A stretch of DNA of 64,000 nucleotides from a bacterium (GTDB lineage Bacteria; Verrucomicrobiota; Verrucomicrobiia; Limisphaerales; UBA11358). The notes beneath the pieces were generated by a model. The model saw only the letters and a list, made by a program, of their open reading frames with translations. It made no database searches and was not told the DNA's origin. Of the stretch, positions 1 to 51,846 are shown piece after piece; the first letter of the stretch is position 1; every line of letters begins with the position of its first letter. The DNA lies in the NCBI GenBank assembly GCA_021817945.1, contig JAKAFL010000009.1, positions 1 to 64,000 on the forward strand, given 5' to 3'. Made by a program: the position numbers and the translations under genes.

Positions 1-652
1 GCCCCAGGCGCAAATCGGCTTTGGGGATGGCCCGGAGGTACTTGGCCGCCGCCTCGGTTCGGCATCGCACATGCAGTTTTTCATAAATATGCATGAGATG
101 GGTGCGGACGGTGGTGAAGCTGATGTTGAGTTTGGAACCGATTTCCTTGTTTGAAAGGCCCTCTGCCAGCAGCGCCAGGATTTCTGATTCGCGGGCCGAG
201 AGTTGGCTGGTGTCCTTCACCTCGGCGGTGTCCCCAATGAAAGACCTTACAACCATGCGCGCGATTTCACTGGTCATGGGCGCTCCGCCGGCCCGGACTT
301 CCGCAATGGCCTCCAGAATTTCCTCATCATCAGAGCGTTTGAGAACATAACCGCAGGCTCCGGCTTTCAAGGCTTGGAAAATCATTTTCGTGTCCTTGTA
401 AACGGTCAGCATGATAACCTGCAAACTGGGCAATTTTTCCCGCAGCCGCGCGGTGCAGACAATTCCAGATTCCCCCGGCAGGTGAATATCCATGAGAACC
501 ACATCCGGTTTATGCTGGGGAATTTTGACGAGCGCCTCCTCGGCTGAGCCGCAGGCGCAGACACAGGCATTGCCGGGGGCGCCCGCCACAAACTCCGCCA
601 GGTATTGGCGCAGGGTGGCATTGTCCTCAACAATGGCGATGCGGGTTTTCAT
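1..652 (-). CDS. NarL/LuxR-family response regulator (3' end outside window)
   Basis: This is a two-component response regulator. It opens in frame from ATG at 652 for 217 codons and runs off the left edge with no stop. Residues 1-120 form a receiver domain: the acidic pair is in IAIVEDN, the phospho-acceptor is Asp55 in DVVLMDIHLP, and a Lys lies in GYVLKRS. Residues of about 150-205 form a LuxR-type helix-turn-helix (LSARESEILALLAEGLSNKE, then TVRTHLMHIYEKL). It lies 159 bp downstream of, and in the same direction as, the large sensor kinase at 812-4222, its likely partner. A close paralogue lies at 27747-28385. It presumably controls the adjacent polysaccharide genes (inference). Family assignment is firm; the target genes are not known. 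Confidence 0.93.
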   Translation of the reverse strand, partial: MKTRIAIVEDNATLRQYLAEFVAGAPGNACVCACGSAEEALVKIPQHKPDVVLMDIHLPGESGIVCTARLREKLPSLQVIMLTVYKDTKMIFQALKAGACGYVLKRSDDEEILEAIAEVRAGGAPMTSEIARMVVRSFIGDTAEVKDTSQLSARESEILALLAEGLSNKEIGSKLNISFTTVRTHLMHIYEKLHVRCRTEAAAKYLRAIPKADLRLG

Positions 653-811: not shown

Positions 812-3800
812 TCATGCTTTGGCTTGCGCCAGGGAAAAGTCCAGACTGATGCAAACGATGGTTCCCCGCCCCGGGTTTGACTTCAAATCCGCACTGCCGC
901 CCAACCGCTGCAATCTTTCTGGAATGTTTTTCAAACCCCGTCCGGCCTCCATTGCGCGGGCCGGGTCGAATCCACAGCCATTGTCCTCGACCTCAATCTC
1001 GAGGATCGTCCCGGTCATTCGAAGATGAAATCCCACCTCGGTCGCCTTTGAATGCTGGACGATGTTATGAATAATCTCTTTGACAGCCAGGAACAATTCA
1101 TGGCGCTGGCGCCCATCCAGGGTGACCATAGGAAGGGAGACAGGGATGCGAAAACGACAGGCAATGCCTGCGCCAGAGAGGTAATCGGCCACATAACTGC
1201 CAAGATAATCGGCAAGGGACTGAAGGGAATTTGCCTCAGGATCCACGGCCCAAACAATCACATCCAGGGCAGACACCAGGTTGTGAGCCTTTTGGGAAAT
1301 GGATTTAAACAAACCATTGGAGCGCCCGTCGTGGCCGTGGCCCCTCAGTCCGGTGCTGGCCATCACCCGAATTTCCGTGAGGCTGGACCCGAGGTCATCG
1401 TGCAAATCCCTCGCAATGCGCGAGCGCTCGGCCTCCAGGGCGCGCATCCGTTCGGCCTGCTCACGCCGTGAATGTTCGCGCTCCAGCATCCGGGTGCGCT
1501 GCTCGACTTTCCTCCGCAACTGGGTGATCCACAAGGATGCCGCAGCTAGAACCGCCACCAGGGCTGCCACGATGAAGAACAGGCGGCGCAGAGTCCACCA
1601 GGGCGGGCGCTGCAACAACTGAATATCATGGGGGCGGTTCAACAAAAGCTCAAAACCCGAACCGTCGCCCATGCTGCCATTGACCGGGGTGACATAGACT
1701 CCAGTGATGTGCAACCGGCTGCCCAGCGGGAATTCCCCCGCAAGATTGTCTGCCGTCACGATTTCCGCACGGTAGTTTCGGAGGCCTGTTTGTAATTCCA
1801 ACAGCCAGTCCTGCCCGGTCCTTTGCAGGCTGATCAATCTTGCCTCCGTCCCCACCAGCAACCCATCCATGGTCCCATCCCCTTTTCCGGCATCCGGCCA
1901 TGGCATTGGCGCGGGCAGGTCTCCATGGCCCGTCCTCCGCACCACCGCCTCATGCAGCACAGGCTCAGGTCCACCGAGTTCTGGAATGCCCACCACATCC
2001 ACAAAATCCCCAAGCGCCAGTCCGTTCATTCCCTCCGCCACAAACCGAAGCGCGCGGCCATCCGCCATCAGATAGGCATCCCCGGTGCCCATGTGCACAA
2101 TCTGGCCCGAAACCCGCACCCGCTGGAATCCGCTGGCATGAAGGTCAAACCTCAATAAATCCCCGATGCTTTTGGCTGGCGCAGAAAATGGCTCGACCGG
2201 GGGCAGTTGATCCACCTGAACCTCGGCATTGTGGATTTTGATCATCCCCACCTGGACTTGGCGGGTTTTGGAATTCCACAGCGCCAGCAGGCATCCACGG
2301 ATCCGCACCAGGGTGTTTTCAAAATGCTGAAGCTGCCCAGGACCCACTCCATGAACCTCCACATTGATTTTTCCACCATCTGTAAGAAGGGTCATTGTGT
2401 TGGATGCCAAGCCCGTGATGATGCCGCGCACCTCCACATATTGCACATCCATGCTGCCACTTATGAGCTGGTTGTAATTGGGGCGAACTGGAACGGGCAT
2501 CCTCCCGGGGCCCATCAAATTGAGCGATTGCACCTCCACCACCGGCGCGAAATCACCCACTCCCGTCACCCCGCGCAAATCCACGAAATCTCCCGCCTCC
2601 AAGCCGTCCCGGTAGGAATCGGGAAGCCTGCAAAACACGCCGCGCGTGTCATCCTGAACCGTTGCCCCATGCCATTCCACCAACGATGTCACCACACCTC
2701 GGATATGCACGGAAAAACCGCGTGCAGCCTCGCTGGCGCTCAACTGCTGCACCTGCGCCGCCATGGTCAATGTGGAGGGCAAGCCCAAACCCGGCGAGAG
2801 TGACCGGCAGTACGCCGGGCTCAATTCCTCCCTGCCATCCCTCATTCGACGGCTTCCCAAAACCTCCACATCTGCCCCATTGGTCCAACCACGCACATCA
2901 TCCAGTTGAATGGGCATGGATTCCCCACCTTCGGCCAACAGCCAGCGACCGTTGCCCCACTCCAGCCTGCCGCGGAGATGGGCAATGAAATTTCCGGCCT
3001 TGCGCCGGTGCAACTCTTCCAGTGAGGCGAGCGGATATTTGTCCCATTGCTCAGAAGCCAGTCGCTGAATGTGGACATATTGGGGCCCTGCAATGGATAA
3101 GCCTTCAAATTCCATCCTTCCCCCGGGACTGGTCACCTGATGCAAAACCCCCTCCACTTGGAGGGTGGCATTCACGAGCAGGGCTGGGCCGAGGGTTGAA
3201 CCATCCGGGACCCATGCCTGAATCTCGCGGTCTCCCACAGCCAGGTCCATCTCCAACTCATTCCCCGCCAACCCTGCAAATTGGACCACACCGGTCGCAG
3301 AAATCCATTGGCCTGAATCCACCCCATTTCCGGGGGCGGGCCATTGAATGTTGGGGATGGGTATTGGCAGGTTGGTGACCAGCACCTGAATCTCCGGATG
3401 CAGCCCACCCAGGTAGAGTTCGCTCCCATCATCCGACCGCAGCCTGAATTCGTATTCCCCAGGCTTGTGAACCTGCAGCCGGGCCTTGAAAATCATGGCC
3501 ACAAACTCCTCCGGGTTTCGCCGCTCAATATCACAAAAAGGGGCTTTCCCTGAAACGGATGGCGTGTCATCCAAAGCTTCATCCATGCTGGAGGGCGTTT
3601 CATTGTAACAAAAATAACTCACCCCAGGGACCGGGGCAGTTCCCTGACCCGAATCTTCAGGCTCCAAAAAAAGATTGCCCGCCCCCAAAGGTTGGTTGGT
3701 GAACCCCGGGCCGGACCATGTCGCCTCCAGCTCTGCCGGATTCTTGGCATTTAAATAAAAAAGCCGGAAAGAGTGAAAACCGGCCTCAAGGTGGATACGA

Positions 3801-4222
3801 CTGGACTTTTCCTCCGCCGAGTGAATGCCACCGTCATCCACCACGGGCGGCTCTCCCAGTTCAATCAATCCGGGGCGTCGGATCAGCTCGCACATGCCCA
3901 GAGCCAGGTGAATGCGCCGACCCGGCAGGCATCCCGACTGGGGCGTCTCCCACCGGCATAATTCCACGCCGGAATCATCGCGAATGACAAATGTGGACGC
4001 CGCAGGATCAGCCCCGCAAATATCGCCGACCAGATCCAGATGGCACAAGCAGCGTTCACGATCCGCCAGCGCCAGCCGCAAGGAATGAACATTCGTGACC
4101 ATAAGGTCCGCAGCAGCCTGCACTGGCAGCATCCCCATCAACAATCCCAAGGCCAGCCAGGCCAGCCTACCCGGCCACACGATGCAGGATGCACGTCCAG
4201 CGCCATCTTCATGGAGATTCAT
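812..4222 (-). CDS. Large membrane sensor histidine kinase with PA14-like and OB-fold-like sensor repeats
   Basis: This 1136-residue sensor kinase should phosphorylate the regulator at 1-652. A hydrophobic N-terminus (about residues 14-38) resembles a signal peptide. Residues of about 120-290 carry PA14-like signatures (FRLRSDDGSELYLGG; LEATWSGPG), a domain often linked to carbohydrate binding. Roughly residues 300-860 are beta-rich repeats with patterns such as VHIRGVVTSLVEWHGATVQD, resembling OB-fold sensor modules. One membrane segment (about 876-898) follows PPWWTLRRLF. A coiled coil, a HisKA_3 dimerisation helix (RIARDLHDDLG, phospho-acceptor about His941) and an HATPase domain (VEDNGCGFD, GRGLKNI) end the protein. 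It is divergent from the prepilin-like gene at 4369. The ligand is unknown; a glycan is my inference from PA14 and from the neighbouring CAZyme genes. Confidence 0.9.
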   Translation of the reverse strand: MNLHEDGAGRASCIVWPGRLAWLALGLLMGMLPVQAAADLMVTNVHSLRLALADRERCLCHLDLVGDICGADPAASTFVIRDDSGVELCRWETPQSGCLPGRRIHLALGMCELIRRPGLIELGEPPVVDDGGIHSAEEKSSRIHLEAGFHSFRLFYLNAKNPAELEATWSGPGFTNQPLGAGNLFLEPEDSGQGTAPVPGVSYFCYNETPSSMDEALDDTPSVSGKAPFCDIERRNPEEFVAMIFKARLQVHKPGEYEFRLRSDDGSELYLGGLHPEIQVLVTNLPIPIPNIQWPAPGNGVDSGQWISATGVVQFAGLAGNELEMDLAVGDREIQAWVPDGSTLGPALLVNATLQVEGVLHQVTSPGGRMEFEGLSIAGPQYVHIQRLASEQWDKYPLASLEELHRRKAGNFIAHLRGRLEWGNGRWLLAEGGESMPIQLDDVRGWTNGADVEVLGSRRMRDGREELSPAYCRSLSPGLGLPSTLTMAAQVQQLSASEAARGFSVHIRGVVTSLVEWHGATVQDDTRGVFCRLPDSYRDGLEAGDFVDLRGVTGVGDFAPVVEVQSLNLMGPGRMPVPVRPNYNQLISGSMDVQYVEVRGIITGLASNTMTLLTDGGKINVEVHGVGPGQLQHFENTLVRIRGCLLALWNSKTRQVQVGMIKIHNAEVQVDQLPPVEPFSAPAKSIGDLLRFDLHASGFQRVRVSGQIVHMGTGDAYLMADGRALRFVAEGMNGLALGDFVDVVGIPELGGPEPVLHEAVVRRTGHGDLPAPMPWPDAGKGDGTMDGLLVGTEARLISLQRTGQDWLLELQTGLRNYRAEIVTADNLAGEFPLGSRLHITGVYVTPVNGSMGDGSGFELLLNRPHDIQLLQRPPWWTLRRLFFIVAALVAVLAAASLWITQLRRKVEQRTRMLEREHSRREQAERMRALEAERSRIARDLHDDLGSSLTEIRVMASTGLRGHGHDGRSNGLFKSISQKAHNLVSALDVIVWAVDPEANSLQSLADYLGSYVADYLSGAGIACRFRIPVSLPMVTLDGRQRHELFLAVKEIIHNIVQHSKATEVGFHLRMTGTILEIEVEDNGCGFDPARAMEAGRGLKNIPERLQRLGGSADLKSNPGRGTIVCISLDFSLAQAKA

Positions 4223-5259: not shown

Positions 5260-5337
5260 TCACAGGCTGTGCTGCCATGGCGCGTCAAACCTTTCAACCA
5301 TCCACCAGTCCATTCAACCAAACATCCACTAAAAACC

Positions 5338-7692
5338 ATGAAAAACAAATTGTTCAACCGCAGTTTCCCATCCCGGCGCGCCTGGCTGGCTCCAGCCATG
5401 GCGGTTTTGGCCGCTGTGACTGTTCACGCGCAGTTTATCCTCGGCAGTTGGCAGGACTCATCAGACGACGGATGGGTTCGTGTGAATGGGTCCGGCGCAA
5501 GCCTTGGCTCCATCTACGCATCGTCCAATGACCCGAGCGCGTTTCAGCAGGTGACCAATGTTGTGGCGGGTTATCCAGAAAGCCTGGACATCAAGGAAAC
5601 GGGCTATGGCAATGTGCGGGCCGAAATCAACATCGCCAGCCTCGCCGGCGGCGTGGCGGCTTGGAACGCCAATTCCAATCTGAATTTCACCTTCTCCTGC
5701 GGACCGGACACCGGCGCTGGTGCCGGATACATGCAGTTGGTCCAGTTCCAATACATTTCTGACAAAGCTGGCTTTAATAACATCACCAGCGGGTGGGGAA
5801 CCAATGGGTTCAGCGAAACTGGAAGCACTGGAAATGATTCCAGCGGCCAGCCGGTCTATTATTTCTATGCGAATTCCCCCTCCCGCTCCCAGGTTGTGAC
5901 TTGGAATTATTCCGGAGCGAAGGCTGCCATTGGCACCAATCCAAGCTATCTCAATATAATTTTTGTGTTTCAAACCGGCGGCGGGGCCCCAACCAATATT
6001 TACCTGAATAACGTCAACCTCTCCGGCGCCCCGGCAGCCGTCACCACCTCCACTTTCATCGTGGATGATTTTTCAACCAATGGCGTGAGCAATTCGAATC
6101 CAACCAATGACGATTACTATTCCAGCGCGCAAAACTACTCCCAAGGCTACATCACCAATGTCTGGTGGAATTGGTTTGGCGGAGCGTTCCAAGACCTGTC
6201 TTGGGATGGAACCGTGGATGCCAATTCGAACTCCGCCTCCGGCTCCATGAAGGTTTCCCTGGCTTTTGACAGCACCAACACCCAGTTTGTGGTCTGGGAC
6301 CAAGGCGAGGTGAACGATTATTATGCGCTCAACATCAGCGCCCTGACCTATACCAATTTCCAATGCGATGTCATGTTTGCTCCAGGATCGGCATCTGCGG
6401 CAGGCACGTTTGGCTATCCCATTTATGGTTATTTGCGCTTTGGGACGCGCACCGCAAGTTATGGACAAGACTGGTTCGGCGGGGTTGAAGTGGCCGCCAC
6501 CAACTCAGGCTGGGTTCATGTCAGCATACCCCTGAACGCAGTGACCGACACTAATTTGCTAAATATCCAAGGCCTTATCATGGGCATTGACAGCGGATAT
6601 TTCGGATTGAACTTGAGCGGATCATCCACTTTCTGGGTGGATAACATCAAATTTGTGGGTCCTGCGGTCGTCAGCACGCCTCCTCCACCGGTTCTGGGCC
6701 TCCAAAAAGCTGTTCCCGCGTTGCGCATTTTTGCGGGATCGTCTGCCAACACCTATGACCGCGAGGAACTGGCCACCACGGACAACAACCAGTCCTGGGT
6801 TTCCGCCGGGTCCGGAGCTCCGGCAACCTATTCGTTCACTCTTCTGGACCGTGGCGCGGATATCAACCAGACGCATATTTTTCTGGTGCCATCCACCCCA
6901 TCCGGCCAGGCTAATATGGGAAATGCCGGCACACCCAATGAGTTCATTGAGTACCAGGCATCAAACACGCTTTGGATGGTCATCAATCCAGCCGCCGCCG
7001 GGGCGGGTTACGTCACGGCCAGCGTCCAATGGAAAACCAACCTTCCTAATTCCAATCCCAACGTGACGGCCCTGACCATCACCAACAGCACCGCCATAGG
7101 CACCTGGACCCTGGCTTTTACCGGTCCCTCCACCGGCACTTTGACCGCTCCCGGCGCCAGCCCGGTGAGCTTCAGTATTGCCGATCCCAACGTGGCTGCT
7201 GATTTCGCAAATCCCTTGGTGGCGTATTTTGGATTGCAGCCCAATTCCACCGCCGGCGAAGGCGAATATGAAGATTGGGCCTCCATCACCGTAACCGGAG
7301 TCAGCGGGACGGCTGAAAATGAGAATTTTAGCAATGAATCCACGTTCAACAGCACATCCCAATGGGCGAATAATTCGGCGCAGGCGTCCAGCATCGAGCT
7401 TGCCACCACCAACACTCCCTATTGGATTAATTGGACACTGCCAGCCAGCGGGTTCGGCCTGGGCACGGCTGAAACCGTAACGGGCAACACCAACACATCC
7501 AATCCCTATATGTTGCCTGAGTACTATAACAACTACGGAGATGGCCAAACCATTCCCGGAGCTGCCATACAAGGTTCAAAAACATGGCTCCTTCTCCCGG
7601 TCAATGACCTGCCCACCGTGGACGGAACCTCCACAGGGGCGAAGTCTCCCGATGCCTTTTTCAGGCTGTTCAACCCGCCCCTTGTGAACTAG
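5338..7692 (+). CDS. Large secreted beta-sandwich-rich protein, function unknown
   Basis: The product is 784 residues. ATG 5338 is chosen because it gives a clear signal peptide (basic MKNKLFNRSFPSRR, hydrophobic AWLAPAMAVLAAVTVHA). A longer reading starts at 5269 but would bury the signal. The mature protein is rich in Asn, Thr, Ser, Gly and aromatics. Two segments (about residues 35-230 and 240-450) look like carbohydrate-binding-type beta-sandwiches; the second ends FWVDNIKFVG, a pattern shared with CBM-like jelly rolls. A third region follows a short proline linker (TPPPPVLGLQ). The protein ends in DAFFRLFNPP, reminiscent of the FYR endings of other secreted proteins here. No catalytic motif was recognised. 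It probably binds glycan or forms a surface structure (inference). Confidence 0.8.
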   Translation: MKNKLFNRSFPSRRAWLAPAMAVLAAVTVHAQFILGSWQDSSDDGWVRVNGSGASLGSIYASSNDPSAFQQVTNVVAGYPESLDIKETGYGNVRAEINIASLAGGVAAWNANSNLNFTFSCGPDTGAGAGYMQLVQFQYISDKAGFNNITSGWGTNGFSETGSTGNDSSGQPVYYFYANSPSRSQVVTWNYSGAKAAIGTNPSYLNIIFVFQTGGGAPTNIYLNNVNLSGAPAAVTTSTFIVDDFSTNGVSNSNPTNDDYYSSAQNYSQGYITNVWWNWFGGAFQDLSWDGTVDANSNSASGSMKVSLAFDSTNTQFVVWDQGEVNDYYALNISALTYTNFQCDVMFAPGSASAAGTFGYPIYGYLRFGTRTASYGQDWFGGVEVAATNSGWVHVSIPLNAVTDTNLLNIQGLIMGIDSGYFGLNLSGSSTFWVDNIKFVGPAVVSTPPPPVLGLQKAVPALRIFAGSSANTYDREELATTDNNQSWVSAGSGAPATYSFTLLDRGADINQTHIFLVPSTPSGQANMGNAGTPNEFIEYQASNTLWMVINPAAAGAGYVTASVQWKTNLPNSNPNVTALTITNSTAIGTWTLAFTGPSTGTLTAPGASPVSFSIADPNVAADFANPLVAYFGLQPNSTAGEGEYEDWASITVTGVSGTAENENFSNESTFNSTSQWANNSAQASSIELATTNTPYWINWTLPASGFGLGTAETVTGNTNTSNPYMLPEYYNNYGDGQTIPGAAIQGSKTWLLLPVNDLPTVDGTSTGAKSPDAFFRLFNPPLVN

Positions 7693-7742: not shown

Positions 7743-7853
7743 TTTGAAAAACCCACCGCCCTTCAAACTTTTTATTCGACCTCATTCAATGCTTTTCACG
7801 CCAGCCTTTTGTTGTCCGCAAGACCATTCATAATCCAGCGGCCCTGCCTGCTC

Positions 7854-10136
7854 ATGAATATCTTATCAATGGTTGGAGCCGATCGTCCCGCATGCAAAGC
7901 CATTCTTGTGATTCTTTTTCTTGGCCTGACGGCGGCCGGGTTGCATTCCCAAAACCTGATCACAAACCCGGGTTTTGAATCTGGCAATTTGAATGGATGG
8001 TTTTCATTTGGTTCGGATGTCCTCTCAATCGAAAGCCAGAGTGTTCATAGCGGATCCTACGCTGCATTGGTTTCCCAGCGCACCGCGACATACATGGGCA
8101 TTGCCCAATCTCTCCAGGGTTTGATCCAAAACGGCCAGTCATGCAGCATTTCTGCATGGCTGCAGCCCGCCAGCGCCTCCGCCGAGACCATGTACCTGAC
8201 CGTGCAACAAACCGATGGCAATGGCACCAGCTATTTCCATGTGGCCGGAGGCTCCCTGCCACCCGGGGTTTGGTCGCAACTTTCCGGCTCCTTTTCCTTG
8301 AACTACTCCGGCACCCTCACTTCCCTTGTTCTCTACGCGGAGATGCCTTCCAGTCCGACCAATTCCTTTTATATTGACGATGTTTCCGCAACCCTTTCAA
8401 CCCCTCCCTCCACAAACGCGCAATGCGTGGTGGATTGGGCAAAGGTGTTCCAGAGAATTGACGGCTTTGGAGCCTCTTCGGCATGGAACAGTTCCATTTC
8501 CAGTGCCCAAGCCAGCCTGTTTTTCTCGACCAACTCCGGCGCGGGCCTTTCCCTGCTCCGCAGCCGGATTGCACCGGATGGCACCACAGTGGAATCCAGC
8601 GTCATGCAGATGGCCCAGTCTCTGGGCGCCCGGGTCTGGAGCACCCCCTGGTCCCCTCCGGCCTCCATCAAGGGCACCAATCAAAATGGCGTGGTCAGTG
8701 TCAATGGCGGACCCTTGATCGGCAACCCCTCCAATTATCAGGCCTATGCCAGTCAATTGGCCCGCTATGTGGTCAATATGAAAAACAATTACGGCATTCC
8801 CATCTATGCCATTTCCGTCCAGAATGAACCGGACACCGATACGACCCAGTATGAATCCTGCGTCTGGACGGCCCAGCAATTTCATGATTTTATTCCGTAC
8901 CTTTCCGCCACTCTTGCCGCCTCCAATGTTGCCTCAACAAAAATCCTGTTCCCTGAAAGCTTCACATGGGCTGGCCACCTTTATTTTCAACAAACAGCCA
9001 TGAACGATCCGTCCGTGGCCCCGCTCGTGGGGATCATTGCCGACCATAATTACGATGGAATCAACTTCCAAACCGGCGACATCAACCCGCCCGCCGCCAT
9101 CACCAATTATGGCAAGGCCCTTTGGGAGACCGAGGTTTCCACAGGCGATCCTTTCGATGGCAGTATTTCCAACGCTGTTTATTGGGCGGGACGAATCCAT
9201 CTTTTCATGACCGTGGCCCAGGCCAATGCCTGGCATTATTGGTGGCTCATTCCTTCCGGGAGCGATAACCAGGGTCTCACCGATTCATCAGGGAATCCGG
9301 CCAAGAGACTTTATGCCCTGGGAAATTTCAGCCGGTTTGTCCGGCCCGGTTATTACCGGATGGGCGTGGACACCAACAATGGTCCGCTGGAAATCAGTGC
9401 TTATCAGGATGCCACCAACGAACAATTTGCCATCGTCGCCATTAACCCCACGTCCTCCTCCGTCACGCAGGGCTTTAACCTTCAATCCTTTGATTCCACG
9501 CAGGTAACCCCTTGGATCACCTCGGCCTCGCTCTCTCTTTCCAGCCAGTCTATCATTCCTGTCACCAATTCTGCTTTTTCCGCCGTCATCCCACCCATGT
9601 CCATTGTCACCTTTGTGGGATTCGCCACCAACCGCCAACCTCCCGTTCTGGCTTCCATTCCCACCCAGATCATCGGCGCTGGCATGACCCTGACGCTGAC
9701 CAATCAGGCATCGGATAACAATATTCCTTTTCCGCCCCTGACTTACTCCCTGCTTGGCGCTCCATCCAATGCCAAAATAAACACCACCAATGGCATTTTC
9801 ACCTGGCGCCCGCTGGTGAGCCAGGCGGACACCACCAATTCAATTGTCGTGAAAGTGGTGGACAACGTGGAAACCACCCTCTCGGACACCAACCAATTCG
9901 AGGTAATAGTCCAATCCTTGGCATTGCCAGTCCTCAACCTGGGCCGGCTGAATCCAAACAGTTATCTCGTTTCCATCACGGGCGCCCTTGGTCCTGATTA
10001 CACCCTGAGGACATCCACCAACCTCATCACCTGGAGTTCCCTGTCCACCACCAACCCTGTTTCAATGCCGCTAAACTTGCAGGTTTCCAACACACTCGAT
10101 CCCCGGCGGTTTTACCGTCTGCTACTGGGCCCGTGA
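7854..10136 (+). CDS. Secreted GH30-family glycosidase (glucuronoxylanase-like) with N-terminal CBM
   Basis: The product is 760 residues. ATG 7854 begins a signal peptide (hydrophobic AILVILFLGLTAAGLHS). Residues of about 35-180 resemble CBM4/9 (NLITNPGFESGNLNGWF ... FYIDDVSATL). Residues of about 190-520 are a GH30 (beta/alpha)8 barrel: FQRIDGFGASSAW, WSTPWSPPASIKG, acid/base Glu325 in SVQNEPDTD, nucleophile Glu427 in LWETEVSTGD, and HYWWLIPSGSDNQG. This pattern fits subfamily-8-type endo-xylanases that act on glucuronoxylan. A cadherin/Ig-like module and a C-terminal module ending in RRFYRLLLGP follow. The next gene encodes a probable deacetylase, suggesting joint attack on acetylated xylan (inference). 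Family is confident; exact substrate is not. Confidence 0.92.
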   Translation: MNILSMVGADRPACKAILVILFLGLTAAGLHSQNLITNPGFESGNLNGWFSFGSDVLSIESQSVHSGSYAALVSQRTATYMGIAQSLQGLIQNGQSCSISAWLQPASASAETMYLTVQQTDGNGTSYFHVAGGSLPPGVWSQLSGSFSLNYSGTLTSLVLYAEMPSSPTNSFYIDDVSATLSTPPSTNAQCVVDWAKVFQRIDGFGASSAWNSSISSAQASLFFSTNSGAGLSLLRSRIAPDGTTVESSVMQMAQSLGARVWSTPWSPPASIKGTNQNGVVSVNGGPLIGNPSNYQAYASQLARYVVNMKNNYGIPIYAISVQNEPDTDTTQYESCVWTAQQFHDFIPYLSATLAASNVASTKILFPESFTWAGHLYFQQTAMNDPSVAPLVGIIADHNYDGINFQTGDINPPAAITNYGKALWETEVSTGDPFDGSISNAVYWAGRIHLFMTVAQANAWHYWWLIPSGSDNQGLTDSSGNPAKRLYALGNFSRFVRPGYYRMGVDTNNGPLEISAYQDATNEQFAIVAINPTSSSVTQGFNLQSFDSTQVTPWITSASLSLSSQSIIPVTNSAFSAVIPPMSIVTFVGFATNRQPPVLASIPTQIIGAGMTLTLTNQASDNNIPFPPLTYSLLGAPSNAKINTTNGIFTWRPLVSQADTTNSIVVKVVDNVETTLSDTNQFEVIVQSLALPVLNLGRLNPNSYLVSITGALGPDYTLRTSTNLITWSSLSTTNPVSMPLNLQVSNTLDPRRFYRLLLGP

Positions 10137-10198
10137 ACCATCCCTTATAACTCTTTATCTGCTTGCCATCCATTCAACATTGTCCGGCCCTGGTTTTT

Positions 10199-12157
10199 AT
10201 GAAAAAACACTCCATCATTGGACCTTTGCTGCTGGCTTTTCTTTCACCCTTCGCCTCGATGGCAAACCCTCGGGATCCGCTGCCTTTCTTGAGCCCGATA
10301 TTTGGGGATCACATGGTGCTTCAACACAATCAACAAACACCCATTTGGGGCTGGGCCCAACCGGGCACCCTGGTCCAGGTGACTCTCGGCGCAGCCTCGG
10401 AATCTACCCTGGCCAATCAAGATGGCAAATGGCAGGTCTTCATTACCACACCGGGCCCGGGAGGGCCCTTTTCATTAAAAATCCAATCGCCAGGGCAACA
10501 GGAAATCCTTCATGATATTCTCATGGGAGATGTCTGGTTGTGTGGAGGCCAGTCCAACATGGAACTTCCACTCAGCCGTACGAGCAACGGATTGGAAGCC
10601 ATCCGAAATGCTTCGCATCCAAACATTCGAATTTTCAAAATCCCATCCCAACCAGCTTATGCCCCGGCGAAACTCGTCAAGGGTTCCTGGAATGTTTGCA
10701 CCCCGGAAACAATTTCAGCCGATGGAGGCTTTTCCGCGGTGGCCTATTACTTTGGACAAACAATCCAATCCCACACCAACATTCCCATTGGTTTGATTGA
10801 GGATTGCGTGGGTGGAACTCCTGCCGAGGCTTGGACCTCTCCTGAAACCCTCATGAAACTGGGCGGATTTCAACAAGGTTTGGACGAGGAATCCCGCCAT
10901 TTGTCGCACGGCGACCCTGAATACGGAAATTATATCATGCATTGGTATGATGATTATGATCCCGGTCAGAAAGGTTTATCATGGGCAAACCCTGGCTTTT
11001 CTGATGAGGATTGGAAACCCGTTCCCCTACCTGGCGGGTTTGAGGAATTGGGGGCGGGCACGAACCCGGCGGTTTGTTACTTTCGCAAAAGCATTGTGTT
11101 GCCAGATCCAGTGCCACCTGGCGACGCCACCCTTCATTTGGGAATCGTCGAACGCATGGATACGACCTTCATCAATGGGAAATGGGTGGGAGCCAGCGCT
11201 TGGGTGGAAAATCCCCGGGTTTATTCCGTTAAACATTCGATTCTGAAACCCGGAACCAACCTCATCACGGTCAGGGTTTTTAAAACCAAGCCGGAAGGCG
11301 GCTTTGAATCCGCCCCAGGCATCCTGAAACTTGTGCTTGGAAACGGGGACTCCATTCCCCTGGCCGGAATTTGGGCCGGACGAATGGCTGTGGATGCCCG
11401 CAAACCGCTTCCCTTACCCTTGACCTTTGAAAACTGGCCGGTCATGCCAGGCGTCCTCTATAATGGAATGATCGCTCCAATTCTGCCTTTTGCCATCAAA
11501 GGGGTGATTTGGTACCAAGGCGAAGCCAATGTGGGCCGCGCCATCCAATACCGTAAACTGCTCCCTGCCATGATCAGCAATTGGCGGAGGGACTTTGATC
11601 AAGGCCCATTTCCATTCTATATCGTCAGTCTGGCGGCATTTTTGCCCCACCGGGACCAACCTGGGGACGATGATTGGGCTGCCTTGAGGGAGGCTCAGGC
11701 CATCACATCCCAGAGCGTGAGCAACTCAGGATTGGCCATCACCATAGACATTGGCGATGCAGCGAACATCCATGCCCCAGATAAAATGGATGTTGGAAAC
11801 CGGCTTGCGCGGTGGGCTTTGGCCCGGGATTATGGAATTTCAATTCCCTGTTGCGGCCCGGAATTGCAGCAGGCGATTTTTAATCACGACGGTTGTAAAA
11901 TAATCTTCAGCCATGCCGATGGCGGCTTGGTCATCAAAGGAGGGCAGGCAGCAGAATTCAGCCTTGCGGGACAGGACCATCATTGGTTTTGGGCCAAGGC
12001 GACCGTGGATGGAAACGCCATCTGGCTTCATTCAAGCGAGGTTTCCCATCCTTTAGCTGCCCGGTACGCATGGCAGGCCAATCCCATCGCGACCCTGTAT
12101 AATAAGGCCAACCTGCCTGCGGTCCCGTTCCGCACAGACGACTGGCCAGTGAATTGA
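10199..12157 (+). CDS. Secreted SGNH sialate O-acetylesterase-like carbohydrate esterase
   Basis: The product is 652 residues. ATG 10199 gives a short signal peptide (MKKHSIIGPLLLAFLSPFAS). The enzyme removes acetyl groups from sugars. Motifs of the SASA/DUF303 family are clear: FGDHMVLQHNQQTPIWGWA near the N-terminus, nucleophile Ser119 in LCGGQSNMELPL, IWYQGEANV, and the Asp/His segment DAANIHAPDK with His525. A beta-galactosidase-like jelly-roll insert (about residues 250-390, with TTFINGKWVG) is typical of the long family members. Next to a xylanase-like GH30 enzyme, the likely substrate is acetylated xylan rather than sialic acid (inference). The gene is the last of cassette A. Confidence 0.9.
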   Translation: MKKHSIIGPLLLAFLSPFASMANPRDPLPFLSPIFGDHMVLQHNQQTPIWGWAQPGTLVQVTLGAASESTLANQDGKWQVFITTPGPGGPFSLKIQSPGQQEILHDILMGDVWLCGGQSNMELPLSRTSNGLEAIRNASHPNIRIFKIPSQPAYAPAKLVKGSWNVCTPETISADGGFSAVAYYFGQTIQSHTNIPIGLIEDCVGGTPAEAWTSPETLMKLGGFQQGLDEESRHLSHGDPEYGNYIMHWYDDYDPGQKGLSWANPGFSDEDWKPVPLPGGFEELGAGTNPAVCYFRKSIVLPDPVPPGDATLHLGIVERMDTTFINGKWVGASAWVENPRVYSVKHSILKPGTNLITVRVFKTKPEGGFESAPGILKLVLGNGDSIPLAGIWAGRMAVDARKPLPLPLTFENWPVMPGVLYNGMIAPILPFAIKGVIWYQGEANVGRAIQYRKLLPAMISNWRRDFDQGPFPFYIVSLAAFLPHRDQPGDDDWAALREAQAITSQSVSNSGLAITIDIGDAANIHAPDKMDVGNRLARWALARDYGISIPCCGPELQQAIFNHDGCKIIFSHADGGLVIKGGQAAEFSLAGQDHHWFWAKATVDGNAIWLHSSEVSHPLAARYAWQANPIATLYNKANLPAVPFRTDDWPVN

Positions 12158-25239: not shown

Positions 25240-25611
25240 AAAAAATTCAAGTGTTTACTTGACAGCAACTTTGAAGTTGGCCGGCCATCAATCCTGTCCC
25301 TGCAGGGACTAGTTATCGGTCGGCAAACAGGCTGCCTCGTCTTCCTTGCGGAGGACGAGGAGCAATGAATCTATCAAAGCCTTGGCTGGATGCAATACTT
25401 TTTTAAACTTTTTTTTGATCACCCCGTTTTGCACCCTTTTGGGTGGTGCCAGTTCTCTCGAACCCACCTTTCTCGTTCCTGCCATTTGATGTCGGCAAAC
25501 TTTGGCTGGCCTGCTTTTTAATGTAAAACTTGACTTCCCCATGAACTTGATGGAATAGCTGAAGGCAATAGCTATCAATTCGGTTTGGGCTCCAAACCGC
25601 AAACCGTTAAA
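25240..25611. other. 372-bp divergent intergenic region: probable r-protein leader and promoters
   Basis: This lies between rplB (minus) and the sensor kinase at 25612 (plus). Toward rplB I see a possible promoter (TTGCAT, 16 bases, TAGATT; about 25370-25395). An 11-bp stem (25335-25360) follows, with loop GCAA and one mismatch on the rplB strand. Then come a perfect 14-bp palindrome GTCCCTGCAGGGAC (25296-25309) and CAAGT/ACTTG (25248-25261) just before the ATG. Toward the kinase, CGGTTTGG/CCAAACCG forms an 8-bp hairpin (25581-25599), 12 bases before its start. The serial hairpins suggest a structured leader for the ribosomal operon (inference). A 58-codon ORF also lies here (separate entry). 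Confidence 0.5.
25309..25485 (-). CDS. Doubtful 58-residue basic ORF in the rplB leader
   Basis: ATG 25485 opens a 58-codon frame. The product would begin MAGTRKVGSRELAPPKR and contain a basic run VIKKKFKKVLHPAKALIDSL. I recognise no family; it is not L23 (rplW), which would be expected near here. It has no ribosome site and overlaps the candidate promoter and hairpin of the rplB leader, so it may be chance or a decayed gene. It is listed so the reader can test it. Confidence 0.18.
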   Translation of the reverse strand: MAGTRKVGSRELAPPKRVQNGVIKKKFKKVLHPAKALIDSLLLVLRKEDEAACLPTDN

Positions 25612-27750
25612 ATGCGCCCATTTCCTTCAAAATCTTTGTATTGCTGCCCATCGGCATTGGGTTCATTGCCCAGTCTGCCCCTGCTGGCATTGGTTTGCGC
25701 CATGCAGTTTTTCCTAAGCCAGTGTGCCCATGCTCAACCTGCCCCAGGGGTGCTTCAGACTGCCGCCCAAGTGCGGGCGTTGAGTGTCGCCCAGACCAGC
25801 CAGCATCTTCCGGTTTATCTCAAGGGCGTGGTCACGTTTTTTGACGAACAGCTTTTTTCCCACTTCATCCAGGATGAAACGGCTGGCATTTATGTTCGGT
25901 TTCCCACGAATGTGGCCCCACTCCGCCTGGACCCGGGAACCTTTGTTGCCATTACCGGATTCTGTAATCCTGGTGAATACGCGCCCGTGGTGGAAATTGA
26001 AGATTTAAAAGTGCTGGGCACAAGGCCATTGCCCCAGCCCAAATTGGTGACATTTGACAAGCTGGCCAGCGGCTCCGAGGACAGTCAATTTGTTGAAATC
26101 AACGGCATTGTCCGTTCGGTATCCTCCGTGCCAGACAGCCCGTATCAGCTTGTTGATATCGCCACGGGTGGCGGGCGCCTTTCGGTTTATTCGCTGAACT
26201 TGCCGGTGGCCCGGCCTGAGGCCTTGCCGGACAGCACGGTCCGGGTTCGCGGTGTCTGCTCCACTAAATTCAACCGGAAGCGCCAGCTCTTTGCCATCCA
26301 ACTCATGGTGCCCCGAAAAGAGGACCTCCAGGTTTTGCAGGCTGCCCCGGCCAATCCGTTCTCGGCCCCGGTCAAACCCATCAACAGCCTGCTTCAATTT
26401 GCACCACAGGAATCTTATGGGCATCGGGTTAAAACCACAGGCACGGTCATTTTTAACGATCCCGGGAATGTTTTGTATTTGGATGACGGGGAGGAGGGGG
26501 TGAAGGTGCAAACCCTTCAAAAAACGCCGGTGAAACTTGGTGACCGGGTTGAGGTATTGGGATTTGTAAGCCAAGGACCTTACACCCCCTTCCTGGAGGA
26601 CGCAGTGTACCGCGTCATCGGGCCAGGTACGCCCGTGGTGCCAACCCGGCTGAGTCTGGATGACACACTCAAGGGCACGCACGATTGCCGGTTGGTGCGC
26701 CTAACCGGCCGGGTGCTGGACCGCGCGGAGCATGGAGGGGATCATTATTTGATCCTCCAGGATGGGGATTTTATTTTTCATGCCTACCTGGCCCAGCTTC
26801 AGGGTGAGGATTTATTTGCGTCCATTGCCAATGGCAGCCGGGTGGCAGTGACCGGGGTTTGCCAGATTGACCCGGGCAAGTGGCAGGCGGGCGATGCGTG
26901 GCGTGCGCGGGGCTTTGGCATCTTGATGCGGTCCATTGACGATGTACAGGTCCTGAAAGCGCCATCTTGGTGGACATTGGAACGAATGTTATGGGTAGCC
27001 GGCGCCTTGGGTTTGGCTGCTCTGGCTGGCTTCGGGTGGGTGGCGGTGCTTCGACGGCAAATCGCCGAGCGCACCCGCCAGTTGGAGGTTCAAATCCTTG
27101 AACGGCAACGCGCCGAGCGCCGGAGGGAAATGGAGCAGGAACGGGCTCGTTTGGCACATGATCTGCACGATGACCTGGGGGCCGGACTTACCGAGGTCAA
27201 CATGCTTGGGTCCCTGGTGCGGAGCCCGGCCACTTCCCCCGAGGAAAAATCCTCCTACCTGAACGACCTTAGTGAAGCCACCTCACGCATGGTTAATTCA
27301 TTGGACGAGATAGTCTGGGCAGTCAATCCGCGCAACGACACCGTTCCCTCCCTGGCCAGTTATTTTGCCTCCTACGCCCAGCGTTTGCTCAACCTGGGAG
27401 GTATTTCCTGCGGCTTGGACATAGCTGAGGACCTTCCCAATCACCCGCTAGACCCCATGTTTCGCCAGCAGGTTTTTTTCGCATTCAAGGAGTCTCTTAC
27501 AAATGTGGTCCGTCACGCCTCAGCCACGCAGGTTTGGCTTAAAATATCGGTTAATGCCGGCAACTTGCACGTGCGGGTCCATGACAACGGGAAAGGCTTT
27601 GCTGCCACCACCCTGCCAGCGGGAAGTGACGGGCTGGAAAATATGCGCGAAAGGCTGAAAAAAATCGGCGGCCAATGCGTTATATCAAGCTCGGATCACG
27701 CCGGCACGGAGGTTTATTTCACCGCCCCGCTCCCTGAAAGCATCTTATGA
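25612..27750 (+). CDS. Membrane sensor histidine kinase with OB-fold-like sensor repeats
   Basis: The product is 712 residues and paralogous to the kinase at 812-4222, but without the PA14 part. ATG 25612 begins a signal-like segment (LPLLALVCAMQFFLSQCAHA). The periplasmic part (about residues 45-450) is a series of OB-fold-like repeats (VYLKGVVTFF ... IQDETAGIYV; VRVRGVCSTKFN; DRVEVLGFVSQG). A single membrane helix (about 462-480) follows PSWWTLERMLW, nearly the same junction as in the paralogue. Then come a HisKA_3 helix (ARLAHDLHDDLGAGLTEV, phospho-acceptor His519) and an HATPase domain (VHDNGKGF, GLENMRERL). Its last four bases overlap the start of the regulator gene, so the two are translated together. 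The ligand is unknown. Confidence 0.92.
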   Translation: MRPFPSKSLYCCPSALGSLPSLPLLALVCAMQFFLSQCAHAQPAPGVLQTAAQVRALSVAQTSQHLPVYLKGVVTFFDEQLFSHFIQDETAGIYVRFPTNVAPLRLDPGTFVAITGFCNPGEYAPVVEIEDLKVLGTRPLPQPKLVTFDKLASGSEDSQFVEINGIVRSVSSVPDSPYQLVDIATGGGRLSVYSLNLPVARPEALPDSTVRVRGVCSTKFNRKRQLFAIQLMVPRKEDLQVLQAAPANPFSAPVKPINSLLQFAPQESYGHRVKTTGTVIFNDPGNVLYLDDGEEGVKVQTLQKTPVKLGDRVEVLGFVSQGPYTPFLEDAVYRVIGPGTPVVPTRLSLDDTLKGTHDCRLVRLTGRVLDRAEHGGDHYLILQDGDFIFHAYLAQLQGEDLFASIANGSRVAVTGVCQIDPGKWQAGDAWRARGFGILMRSIDDVQVLKAPSWWTLERMLWVAGALGLAALAGFGWVAVLRRQIAERTRQLEVQILERQRAERRREMEQERARLAHDLHDDLGAGLTEVNMLGSLVRSPATSPEEKSSYLNDLSEATSRMVNSLDEIVWAVNPRNDTVPSLASYFASYAQRLLNLGGISCGLDIAEDLPNHPLDPMFRQQVFFAFKESLTNVVRHASATQVWLKISVNAGNLHVRVHDNGKGFAATTLPAGSDGLENMRERLKKIGGQCVISSSDHAGTEVYFTAPLPESIL

Positions 27751-28385
27751 TCAAGGTCTGCATTGTTGAGGACAACAACACCGTCCGCCAAGGATTCGAA
27801 ACTCTCCTCACGCGAACCCCGGGGTTTCAGTGTGCCTGCTCCTGCTCAACGGTGGGGGAGGCGCTCAAGAAAATCCCCAAACTCAGCCCGGACGTGGTGC
27901 TGATGGACATTCAGTTGCCGGATGCCACGGGCGTGGAATGCACCGCCAAACTCAAGGAATTGCTGCCCAAGGTGCATATCGTCATCGTCACAGTTTACGA
28001 GGATTCGGAGCGCATTTTCCAGGCTCTCCAGGCCGGAGCCTGCGGGTATCTCTTGAAAAGGTCAGGCCCTGAAAAAATCCTTTCAGCCATCCAGGAGGCG
28101 CACGAGGGCGGAGTGCCCATGACCCCGGAAATAGCCCGCAAGGTCATAGGCCAATTCAGGCAACAAGCCACGGTGAGATCGGAGGTGGAAGACCTTACTG
28201 AAAGGGAGCGGGAAGTCCTGGTTTTAGTCATGCACGGTCACGCCAACAAAGCCATAGCCGAACGCCTTGGGGTGACCATTGCGGCGGTAAAATGGCATTT
28301 GCAGCACATCTATGAAAAGCTGCATGTTCATTCCCGCACCGAAGCCGCACTGAAATTCAAACAGGGAACCTCCTCAGAAAACTAG
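27747..28385 (+). CDS. NarL/LuxR-family response regulator
   Basis: The product is 212 residues. The receiver has the acidic pair in CIVEDNNTV, phospho-acceptor Asp54 in DVVLMDIQLPD and Lys in GYLLKRSG. The LuxR helix-turn-helix (about 145-205) reads LTEREREVLVLVMHGHANKA, then AAVKWHLQHIYEKLHVHSRT. The ATG overlaps the kinase TGA (ATGA junction), marking a cognate pair. It is closely similar to the regulator at 1-652. It probably controls the following secreted protein, pilin and glycosidase genes (inference from order). Confidence 0.94.
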   Translation: MIKVCIVEDNNTVRQGFETLLTRTPGFQCACSCSTVGEALKKIPKLSPDVVLMDIQLPDATGVECTAKLKELLPKVHIVIVTVYEDSERIFQALQAGACGYLLKRSGPEKILSAIQEAHEGGVPMTPEIARKVIGQFRQQATVRSEVEDLTEREREVLVLVMHGHANKAIAERLGVTIAAVKWHLQHIYEKLHVHSRTEAALKFKQGTSSEN

Positions 28386-28471
28386 CCGGTTGGCTAGCTT
28401 CCGGTTTGGCCATGATGGCGTATGTTGTTCCCACACCGACAACATTATTGCACACGATCTACCCACACGAT
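28382..28471 (+). promoter_or_regulatory. Structured gap before the duplicated-domain protein: hairpin, inverted and direct repeats
   Basis: Three items lie in 115 bp. CTAGCC/GGCTAG (28382-28397) forms a stem at the regulator stop. ATGTTGT (28422-28428) and ACAACAT (28439-28445) form an inverted repeat with a 10-base spacer. CACACGAT occurs twice (28451, 28464) as a direct repeat. The latter two are of the size expected for regulator-binding sites; none is proven. Confidence 0.3.
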
Positions 28472-28499
28472 TTGTCTGCCCAAACCAAAAAAACAACCC

Positions 28500-30509
28500 A
28501 TGAAAAAAACAATCACTCAGTTATACATACTCCTCATCATTGCATGCGCCTCCTTGTTTGCCCCTGCCGGGGCCCGGGCTCAGGTGCTTCTTCAGGTGGA
28601 TCCCAGCCAGCCTTGGATTGGCTACATGAACGTGTTTGCCCTCCCGGCCAATGGCGGTGCCTATGAGTTTGGTTTCGTGGATGGCACGGCCGCCCTGCAG
28701 GCCGTTTTTAGCAGCACCAACCTGGTGCTGAGCCCCTGCACCAATGTTTGGGAGACCGTGGACACCACCTATGTCCAGGCGGATGGGCGAACACCGGCTG
28801 TGGATATGGACGCCAACTTCTATGTGGAGAACAACGCCCTGCTCAACACCAATGTCATTTTCTCCGGAACCTGCTCCAGCAACACCCTTACCTTGAACCC
28901 GGAACCTCTCACCGGAGTTTCCTATACCTCGGTGGCCTTCGTGAAGGTGTTTGATTCCGCTTACAGCCTCCTTGGATCCGTTACCACCAACCTGGTCGCA
29001 GGCAAGTTCTTTTCCATTGGGTTAAATACCGCAATCGCCAATGCCGCGCATGTGCAATATGGATTCGAGACATTTGGACCGGATGCCTCCCCTACGAACA
29101 CCACCCTTGGCGATGTTGTCGTGGCAGTGGCGGGACAGTCCGCCACGGTCACTGTTGATCCGAGCCAGAACTGGCTCGGATACATGAACGTTTCGGATCT
29201 TCCCGTTGCCAACGGAGGGGATGGGGTGTACCAATTTGGCAGTCCCTGGGGCGTGCCCAACCTGCAGGCATTCTTAACCCAATCCAACCTCACACTTTTG
29301 CCCTGCACCAATGTGTGGGAAACAACCAACACCTACTGGGTTCAAGCCAACGGAACCACGCCAAACAAGATGTGCGATGCAAGCGCCTATGTGCAGAACG
29401 ATAATTTGATCAACACAAACCTGATATTCATTGGAACCTGCCAGAGCAACAGCCTGACCTTGAGTCCAGAGCCTTTGACCGGCGTGACCTACACCTCCTC
29501 GGCCTTCATCAAAACTTTTGACGCCAGCTTTAATTTACTGGGCAGTTCCACCATCCCGCTTTCGGCTGGCCAATCCTTCGAGATCAGCTTGAACACGTCC
29601 GGTGCCGCGCATGTGCAATACGGGTTTGAGACTGTGGGACCCGATGCCAACCCGACGACGGCTGCCAGCCTGGGCGCCGTGGTCCTTTCAGCAGCCGTGC
29701 CGCCTTCTCCCACCCCGGTTCTGACCAATAATGCCCCCACCCCCACCCTGCCCCAAAGCGCGGTGCTCAGCCTTTATAATAGCAGCGGCGTTTACACCAA
29801 CCATCCCATTGAAAGATGGCTTGCCACCTGGAGCGGTGCCGCAGAATCGCCCTTCACCATCCCTGCCACCGGGCGGACCGTCCTGAAATATTCCAACCTG
29901 CAATACGCTGGGGTGGAATTTTACAACAACGATCCCACGCTGGGCGCGGGTGGGGACAACGTGGGCGGAGCCACCAATTTCTCCATCAACACCACCGGCT
30001 ATGACACCATGCATGTGGACCTCTGGACTCCGAACGGCAACCAGTTTGGAATTCAATTGGTGAGCATTAATCCCACCGAGGCCGCTCAGGTGAATTTCGT
30101 TCCTCCCGGCGGCGGCATCACCAACTTTGGCTGGGTGAGCTTGAACATCCCGCTCAGTTCCTTTGCCACCGCAAATCCCCTGACAGTATTCACGAACCTC
30201 CAGCAAATGTTGTGGATTGACAACATGACCAACGGCGTTTCTGGAAGCACGTTTTACCTGGACAACATCTATTTTTACAACAGCAGCGCCCAGGTGACCC
30301 GCCCTTCCATTGGTGCCTCAGTTGTGAACGGGTCCATGCAAATCTCGGTTGCCACGCAAATGGGTCATTCTTATGTGATCCAATACAAAAACCTGCTGAC
30401 AGATCCCGTCTGGCAGACCCTGACCACCCTCACTGGAAATGGTTCCATTCAGTTGGCCACAGATGTTAAAAACCAGTCCAGCCGGTTTTATCGAATCCTA
30501 GTGCAATAA
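28500..30509 (+). CDS. Secreted protein with a duplicated ~185-residue domain and a CBM-like C-terminal half
   Basis: The product is 669 residues. ATG 28500 gives a signal peptide (MKKTITQLYILLIIACASLF, then AGARA). Residues of about 33-215 and 218-400 are tandem copies of one domain: VDPSQPWIGYMNVFALP versus VDPSQNWLGYMNVSDLP, PCTNVWETVDTTYVQADG versus PCTNVWETTNTYWVQANG, and LTLNPEPLTGVSYTS versus LTLSPEPLTGVTYTS. Each has two conserved Cys (PCTNVWE and GTCxSN), suggesting a disulfide. After a Pro/Thr linker, about 430-600 resembles a carbohydrate-binding beta-sandwich (STFYLDNIYFYNS). The end (SYVIQYKNLL ... RFYRILVQ) is the C-terminal module seen in other secreted proteins here. No enzyme motif was recognised. 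Confidence 0.82.
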   Translation: MKKTITQLYILLIIACASLFAPAGARAQVLLQVDPSQPWIGYMNVFALPANGGAYEFGFVDGTAALQAVFSSTNLVLSPCTNVWETVDTTYVQADGRTPAVDMDANFYVENNALLNTNVIFSGTCSSNTLTLNPEPLTGVSYTSVAFVKVFDSAYSLLGSVTTNLVAGKFFSIGLNTAIANAAHVQYGFETFGPDASPTNTTLGDVVVAVAGQSATVTVDPSQNWLGYMNVSDLPVANGGDGVYQFGSPWGVPNLQAFLTQSNLTLLPCTNVWETTNTYWVQANGTTPNKMCDASAYVQNDNLINTNLIFIGTCQSNSLTLSPEPLTGVTYTSSAFIKTFDASFNLLGSSTIPLSAGQSFEISLNTSGAAHVQYGFETVGPDANPTTAASLGAVVLSAAVPPSPTPVLTNNAPTPTLPQSAVLSLYNSSGVYTNHPIERWLATWSGAAESPFTIPATGRTVLKYSNLQYAGVEFYNNDPTLGAGGDNVGGATNFSINTTGYDTMHVDLWTPNGNQFGIQLVSINPTEAAQVNFVPPGGGITNFGWVSLNIPLSSFATANPLTVFTNLQQMLWIDNMTNGVSGSTFYLDNIYFYNSSAQVTRPSIGASVVNGSMQISVATQMGHSYVIQYKNLLTDPVWQTLTTLTGNGSIQLATDVKNQSSRFYRILVQ

Positions 30510-51400: not shown

Positions 51401-51846
51401 GAAAAAAAGAACCCAAACGAGGTGGAGGAGCTAATAAAAAGTCCTCCGTTGGTTGATACAAATCCCGAAGAACAAAAAATAGAACCACTGTTAAAAATAC
51501 TCGCGGACATGGAACGACTATTGTTGAGAGGATTTTCGTCATCCATCAAAAACCCGGAATAGCATGTCATTTCGCCGGAGTTGGTATAATTCAGGGTGTC
51601 ACGCGTTTCATAGAGCGATGTTCCACCAGATAATATGTCAAAATAACCCGTATTTACGAAATTGGTCGCGTCAATGTCATCCGAAGTGACTGTTCCAGGA
51701 TAAAGGAATGACCCCGTGTTGATGAAAAAACTGTCTGCTGCGCAAGCCACCGGCAAATACCCCAGAAAAAGGACAACCAGGGGGGAAAGGACAAAAATAT
51801 TTTTCAGGATTCCCGACTTTCGAAATTTTTTAAAAAGTTTCTTCAT
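48481..51846 (-). CDS. Very large secreted adhesin-like protein (gene 3 of a three-gene operon)
   Basis: The product is 1121 residues. A basic, then hydrophobic, N-terminus (KNIFVLSPLVVLFLGYLPVA, ending ACAAD) is a signal peptide. The first 200 residues carry short repeats of the kind FVNTGYFDILSG, NYTNSGEMTCYSGF, SIFNSGSIFCSSGF, NIINPGLVDVGQGASM, which suggest a parallel beta-helix like that of filamentous adhesins. The rest is Asn/Ser/Thr/Gly-rich beta structure. The end (NIVQYTTNLVSGPW ... RYYRVEVLQ) is the shared C-terminal module. No autotransporter barrel, PEP-CTERM or LPXTG tag was seen. It lies 10 bases after the next upstream gene, so it is co-transcribed. Confidence 0.78.
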   Translation of the reverse strand: MKKLFKKFRKSGILKNIFVLSPLVVLFLGYLPVACAADSFFINTGSFLYPGTVTSDDIDATNFVNTGYFDILSGGTSLYETRDTLNYTNSGEMTCYSGFLMDDENPLNNSRSMSASIFNSGSIFCSSGFVSTNGGLFISSSTSFGFFFSGLYGYAALATNIINPGLVDVGQGASMDFIGNDVDLSGATLTFEGPTYNTSGVGIHGTNYWDPSSLTATSAGTGFFSTNAVYSNPGYLQYGFTLNPTVPFYSTNAVGTNSETIHSAFVQDYSGGNVTYAVYFNTAGKGLGPGNVTIQWSAPYTNLSTGIVLTNYLYLNNDYQLGSSTNVNFVNGLPNNFQITQSFLPLLTNATASTSNFYSGFVAGPLTNQSSLGIIYLSSGSASTNQIANGSPTNLPDQLVISASHSLNLTNAQISGPNYVSIQAPNQFAASSGASFAAPYLDLNLGSTNGSLVVSNLIATQIPYWNGLIQAWSTRWLVGITGTNGSTTTGTNDFRVLVVSSFLSPTTIPQVMNMALNATNNLTFSDSLNILNSFGANSLSLTITTNDVSLGAASPEGGLNIENPLFNWPSAFPDLLNLTNFGLINLANNGVFESSTNTTTVTAGTPQANATAVLSEVSGATNVAPLDTVTVGYTTYTYVKHLTNTIADQVSVASSLAGSISNLIQAINVSSGSGSLYSTNTTGNPLVTAGPFVTNGFTVTSILTGPSGNGLPVSVSSKSLVWSSGSSLSGGVNATPGTTNVASVPVWYNNFINQGSLNASSLHVFANNFDNGGFIFSDNIELQAQTAAFSGGSVLSVFGISLASQDLIVSNALLTASGSISLQVTNLLTDGVVAGPIPLAAPYVWNVGGTNSSGLNLLDLPAFGGLLGTAIYATPPPNKVVYNTWAGADLGANPSGFNNNAAIGELNLAGALGGVWYYFGTGSTNAIYIDSISLNGSSAGTDSQGNPVALKSAPNFNIYYAQAYSNGVSVAKALDGKNNGHLHWISSYVGHFSSAAYTYNGQTYYVNAGLLASSPSTVFVAGQVNLTPSLTNVAPNQIKLQWNTPPGANNIVQYTTNLVSGPWLSLPKISQYYYGSGVSVSNSSASGFISPQSASGPVTNVWIFDSLTNSSERYYRVEVLQ

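Follow-up and report, generated by a model that had tools for sequence, protein, structure and literature searches.

Kinase architecture and order of the PA14 halves

With good confidence, the gene at 812-4222(-) of the window (the whole 64,000-nucleotide stretch of Verrucomicrobiota DNA analyzed in this study) can be described as a NarX/UhpB-type (HisKA_3) sensor kinase whose ectodomain starts with the order OBa-PA14-OBb and whose PA14 sandwich is circularly permuted. A sequence-only reading of this DNA had described a kinase open reading frame of 1136 residues with two PA14 motifs, and all of this is present as described (Table 1). Pfam places HisKA_3 at residues 932-984 and HATPase_c at residues 1042-1129, and a NarL/LuxR-type regulator gene is adjacent, as in a two-component sensor. 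The transmitter domain and the regulator type are those of the HisKA_3 kinases NarX, NarQ, UhpB and LiaS with their NarL-type regulators. In contrast to these, the window kinase has an ectodomain made of OB repeats and a permuted PA14. An orthologue (L040) is 95% identical to the window kinase.

Table 1. Features of the kinase gene and its neighbors (window coordinates; residues are those of the kinase)
Feature	Position	Strand	Basis
NarL/LuxR-type response regulator, next gene; internal ATG start MKTRIAIVED, open ORF 2-787	2-652	-	Response_reg 4.8e-25, GerE 8.6e-19
Sensor histidine kinase, 1136 aa	812-4222	-	ORF + HisKA_3 + HATPase_c; HK profile 925-1127, E 7.5e-86
HisKA_3 + HATPase_c transmitter, residues 925-1127; DLHDD box at 939	842-1450	-	Pfam + HK profile
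Transmembrane helix (putative), ~residues 884-905	1508-1573	-	Sequence reading, LRRLFFIVAALVAVLAAASLWITQLRRK
OBb unit 3, residues 761-873	1604-1942	-	Profile E 9.8e-6
OBb unit 2, residues 569-672	2207-2518	-	Profile E 1.6e-4
OBa unit 2, residues 484-553; no PA14 before next OBb	2564-2773	-	Profile E 0.0009
OBb unit 1, residues 279-390	3053-3388	-	Family profile E 2.5e-27
PA14 N-terminal half, residues 198-275, second in chain	3398-3631	-	Pfam PA14 3-78/147; profile E 5.7e-20
Asp264-Asp265 of SDDGS	3428-3433	-	Alignment with ADDG of PA14 lectin; PMC8092209
PA14 C-terminal half, residues 125-189, first in chain	3656-3850	-	Profile E 5.6e-21
OBa unit 1, residues 41-111	3890-4102	-	Family profile E 4.1e-24
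Signal peptide-like N-terminus (putative), residues 1-38	4109-4222	-	Sequence reading, LAWLALGLLMGMLPVQAAAD
CBM4_9 + GH30-like hydrolase	7809-10136	+	CBM4_9 4.5e-26; GH30 1e-4, below cut-off
SASA-type carbohydrate acetylesterase	10163-12157	+	8.8e-17

The PA14 domain proposed earlier is found by Pfam (PF07691) at residues 199-273, so the outcome named at the time as contrary, no PA14 match, did not occur. The full protein scores 24.3 bits against a gathering score of 24, rising to 28-31 bits with the ectodomain or the domain alone, and 30 of 31 homologous ectodomains have a PA14 match. The match in the window kinase covers profile positions 3-78 of 147. Both PA14 signatures do lie within the N-terminal 300 residues, as had been reported; what went unnoticed is that their order is reversed. 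LEATWSGPG, which belongs to the C-half, stands upstream of FRLRSDDGSELYLGG in the N-half, and this end signature of PA14 precedes the PA14-middle signature SDDGSELYLGG by about 90 residues. In native order the domain scores 31.1 bits over profile positions 3-78 only, and the remaining profile matches upstream, not downstream; no continuous stretch of N-half followed by C-half is present. When the halves are swapped back, one continuous Pfam match results (39.8 bits, profile 4-137 of 147). Ten homologues behave in the same way: in native order their halves match separately or one half matches alone (24.9-45.4 bits), and once reordered all ten give a single continuous match (33.0-55.5 bits, a gain of 7.2-10.6 bits in each).

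The order OBa, C-half, N-half, OBb is constant in an alignment of the 31 ectodomains, with a C-half consensus of VVDNDGxH...LxAGxHPxRLxWFN...GPG..Q.IP and an N-half consensus of GLxYxCYEGxW..LPDF...GxYxFxLxSDDGSxLF. Half by half, permuted and canonical consensus sequences are nearly alike. Searched against the PDB, the native-order profile matches the tandem PA14 proteins 6qdi and 6qe7 (RsgI3) across their domain junction, where the C1-N2 arrangement has the same half order as the permuted domain. Once reordered, the profile hits single PA14 domains such as the MpPA14 lectin, and also the PA14 domain of sulfatase 9s8a, and the match runs straight over the join; in this order, canonical bacterial PA14 (PF07691; MpPA14, PDB 6x7j and 5j6y) gives good E-values for both halves. 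Compared with these canonical domains, the window family has swapped halves, termini at the SDDG hairpin, and a nested position between OB units of a kinase. Judged by the order of its parts in the sequence, the PA14 domain of this kinase is circularly permuted. That Pfam does report a PA14 match could be taken to indicate an ordinary domain in canonical order, but this is refuted by the order of the halves, the native match ending at profile position 78 and the rest of the profile lying upstream, and we assign it almost no probability. Insertion of an OB unit inside PA14 was also rejected because it would leave the N-half before the C-half. An apparent C-N-C arrangement in one homologue (L219) was judged to be a chance match.

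A search of the open literature turned up no circularly permuted PA14 and nothing relevant on PA14 combined with a histidine kinase. A comparable relationship has been described for CBM36 and CBM60, two Ca2+-dependent carbohydrate-binding modules related by circular permutation (Montanier 2010, as cited in PMC4444583 and PMC12667903). The likeness lies in the permutation, while the domain families differ from PA14. Both modules occur in enzymes and are not known from sensors. Since Pfam reports permuted PA14s as partial matches only, a whole sensor family of about 130 relatives is half-annotated.

PA14 as an insert between OB-like units

OB-fold-like modules had also been claimed for the ectodomain. 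Units of two kinds, OBa and OBb, do recur up to residue 873 by family profiles (Table 1), yet Pfam finds no OB match in the protein itself. Their OB identity draws on a PF01336 match (1.7e-7) in a window paralogue at 25585-27750, together with weak matches to OB folds in the PDB (E 0.16-0.59), and we call them OB-like. In the paralogue, OBa and OBb are adjacent with a spacing of about 15 residues and nothing inserted, and in the second OBa-OBb repeat of the window kinase they are likewise adjacent. The permuted PA14 is thus inserted between OBa and OBb and adds about 165 residues. Across permuted open reading frames the placement is nearly invariant, with OBa before and OBb after PA14 in 130 of 132. 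One kinase of 1541 residues (L346, G554:C372) carries the complete OBa-permuted PA14-OBb module twice in tandem. At 25585-28385 the window encodes another HisKA_3 kinase together with a NarL-type regulator of its own directly behind it; this kinase has OBa-OBb repeats and lacks PA14.

Probable closure of the two halves

Whether the permuted halves close into one sandwich was approached through covariation, with couplings computed separately for 97 permuted and 77 canonical sequences and the inter-half blocks compared. The correlation between the two sets is small in absolute terms (r 0.111; 0.105 double-centered) and exceeds both register-shift controls (0.000 +/- 0.014, maximum 0.041 in 600) and row-shuffled nulls in which N-halves were re-dealt among the permuted sequences (0.042 +/- 0.016, maximum 0.082 in 40). 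Eight of the top 60 inter-half pairs are common to both sets, compared with a shuffled mean of 0.85 and a maximum of 2. Of 10,428 seven-residue strips, the hairpin pairing VDNDG x SRL, predicted in advance, takes second place. In canonical PA14 the pairing SRLF x VVDND is local, in the permuted form its partners are about 140 residues apart, and in both sets it belongs to the top antiparallel strips. The alignments are of low depth (Neff 95 and 73), and some strips that were not expected score equally high. AlphaFold2, run on a two-sequence alignment (window kinase and L040) that is too shallow, returned a pLDDT of 46 and a pTM of 0.45, with no Foldseek match. Because inter-half covariation mirrors that of canonical PA14 beyond the shifted and shuffled controls, the permuted halves probably pack together as a single PA14 sandwich.

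Covariation fits two arrangements equally: closure within one chain, and a swap of halves between the partners of a dimer. The halves could accordingly be half-domain remnants of an old PA14 tandem that complete each other between the two chains of a kinase dimer, and the same phylum does contain tandem PA14 proteins (L230/L246, L249, L128) with an equal C-to-N linker of about 10 residues. We regard such a domain swap as unlikely: the halves are adjacent, joined by a short linker and always present as one of each per module; the new termini lie on one hairpin, as those of a closed permuted domain would; and in the protein with two modules (L346) each module is intact.

The Asp-Asp site and candidate glycan sensing

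In the MpPA14 lectin the pair Asp110-Asp111 binds Ca2+ and sugar (PMC8092209). The SDDG of the kinase family aligns with the ADDG of this lectin when the reordered profile is compared with the PDB, and by position the two aspartates fit as the equivalents of Asp110-Asp111, with the residue offset deduced from the alignment. Among permuted copies 90 of 97 retain the pair (D264-D265 in the window kinase), as do 52 of 77 canonical ones. The Asn of WFN, a residue that belongs to the other half, is found in 89% of permuted and 18% of canonical copies. The higher retention of both in permuted copies suggests that the site is under selection. Apart from this Asn, the other positions corresponding to the Ca2+/sugar loops of the lectin are variable.

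A precedent exists in Clostridium RsgI3, in which a PA14 dyad acts as a polysaccharide sensor and binds pectin-like polysaccharides (PMC4711584; PDB 6qe7). The likeness is an extracytoplasmic PA14 placed as a polysaccharide sensor, putatively so in the window kinase. RsgI3 differs in having two complete canonical PA14 domains, in signaling through an anti-sigma factor, and in its Clostridium host. The gene neighborhood also bears on function. A NarL/LuxR-type regulator gene lies near the kinase in 32 of 33 relatives, and in the orthologous locus L040 the response regulator is followed by genes for a GH3 and an MFS_2 (GPH)-type sugar transporter. In the window, a pseudopilin-like open reading frame and one without a family separate the kinase from the CBM4_9/GH30-like and SASA genes. 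Long open reading frames (695-1121 aa) with no Pfam match are found at 5269-7692(+), 28422-30509(+) and 48481-51846(-).

Given the retained Asp-Asp pair, the regulator and CAZyme/transporter neighbors, and the RsgI3 precedent, glycan sensing, which the sequence-only reading had put forward, is the likely function of the window kinase, which probably reports on extracellular polysaccharides. The permuted PA14 may instead act as a structural spacer or mediate protein-protein contacts, with the signal (a protein partner or the state of the envelope) read elsewhere and no glycan bound. The poor conservation of lectin loop ligands other than Asp-Asp fits such a role, and so does an ectodomain that consists mostly of OB repeats, which exist without PA14 in related kinases. 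We consider this the less probable explanation, at perhaps one chance in four, since the Asp-Asp pair and the WFN Asn are retained preferentially in the permuted copies and since CAZyme and sugar-transport genes lie nearby. If glycan sensing holds, the permuted-PA14 kinases would form a candidate glycan-sensor class for Verrucomicrobiota.

A mechanism can be outlined for such sensing. The chain would enter PA14 at the strand after the SDDGS hairpin (VVDDGG) and run through the C-terminal half, the linker of about 10 residues would bridge the former C-terminus and the former N-terminus, and the chain would leave at SDDGS-ELYL. Each new terminus would therefore be one strand of a single hairpin next to the Asp-Asp site, a favorable geometry for placing the domain between two OB units. 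A glycan or oligosaccharide may bind at the Asp-Asp site, probably with Ca2+ and with both halves contributing. Binding could change how the two OB units are placed relative to each other. This change could travel through the OB repeats and the membrane helix until it reaches the kinase, and the kinase would then phosphorylate the adjacent NarL-type regulator and so turn on nearby polysaccharide-use genes. We offer only tentatively the further idea that the permutation is functional and not neutral, the sugar site having become a hinge between OB units that couples binding directly to signaling. If so, the success of the module as a sensor cassette, with several paralogues per genome and a tandem copy in one protein, would be owed to the permutation.

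Distribution and origin of the permuted form

Overlapping genome samples were searched with the native-order profile at four ranks: genus (49 genomes), order (320), class (385) and phylum (289). Permuted proteins give a single unbroken match over profile positions 2-166, and canonical PA14s give 76-158 followed by 5-72. Strong full-length matches occur in 30 of the 49 genus genomes. Strong full-length matches occur in 52 of the 320 order genomes, one of which (G561) turned out to be a canonical tandem. The permuted form is also found in other families of the phylum Verrucomicrobiota; it was found in none of 248 Bacteroidota and none of 30 other genomes, and a search of viral contigs gave no relatives. 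After near-identical copies were removed, 97 permuted and 77 canonical units remained. The swapped order is constant in these 97 Verrucomicrobiota copies, in contrast to the canonical PA14s of the same phylum, which have the N-half followed by the C-half.

Within the fetched DNA, a kinase domain is present in 30 of 33 permuted open reading frames of at least 900 aa, and an OB or kinase domain in 0 of 103 canonical ones, many of whose loci are short pieces. Permuted copies sit inside OB-OB and canonical ones elsewhere, which makes the family a clean natural example of circular permutation coupled to the insertion of a domain. Short permuted open reading frames (376-444 aa) were rejected as real short forms; they look like frameshifts or contig ends, with overlapping second open reading frames in another frame. 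In L033/L160 and L247, the permuted PA14 and the kinase lie on two overlapping open reading frames in different frames, reflecting either sequencing frameshifts or decaying genes.

In a tree of the reordered sequences, 94 of the 97 permuted copies group together with one canonical copy, and three changes are needed. Based on this grouping, the permutation has roughly one origin, with a support of 0.73 for the split that gathers the permuted copies and with the subfamily of the window kinase itself outside the main clade. The C-to-N linker has a median of 10 residues in permuted domains and likewise about 10 in L246 and other canonical tandem PA14 proteins. This agrees with the way permutations commonly arise, and we infer that a duplication was followed by loss of the outer halves. 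Tandem PA14s would then be the likely intermediates; two or three head-to-tail PA14 domains occur in L249, L246/L230, L128 and L345, and these are candidates for that role. The draft genome from which the window derives (G000) encodes at least 17 kinases with a related transmitter part, and three of these carry a permuted PA14.
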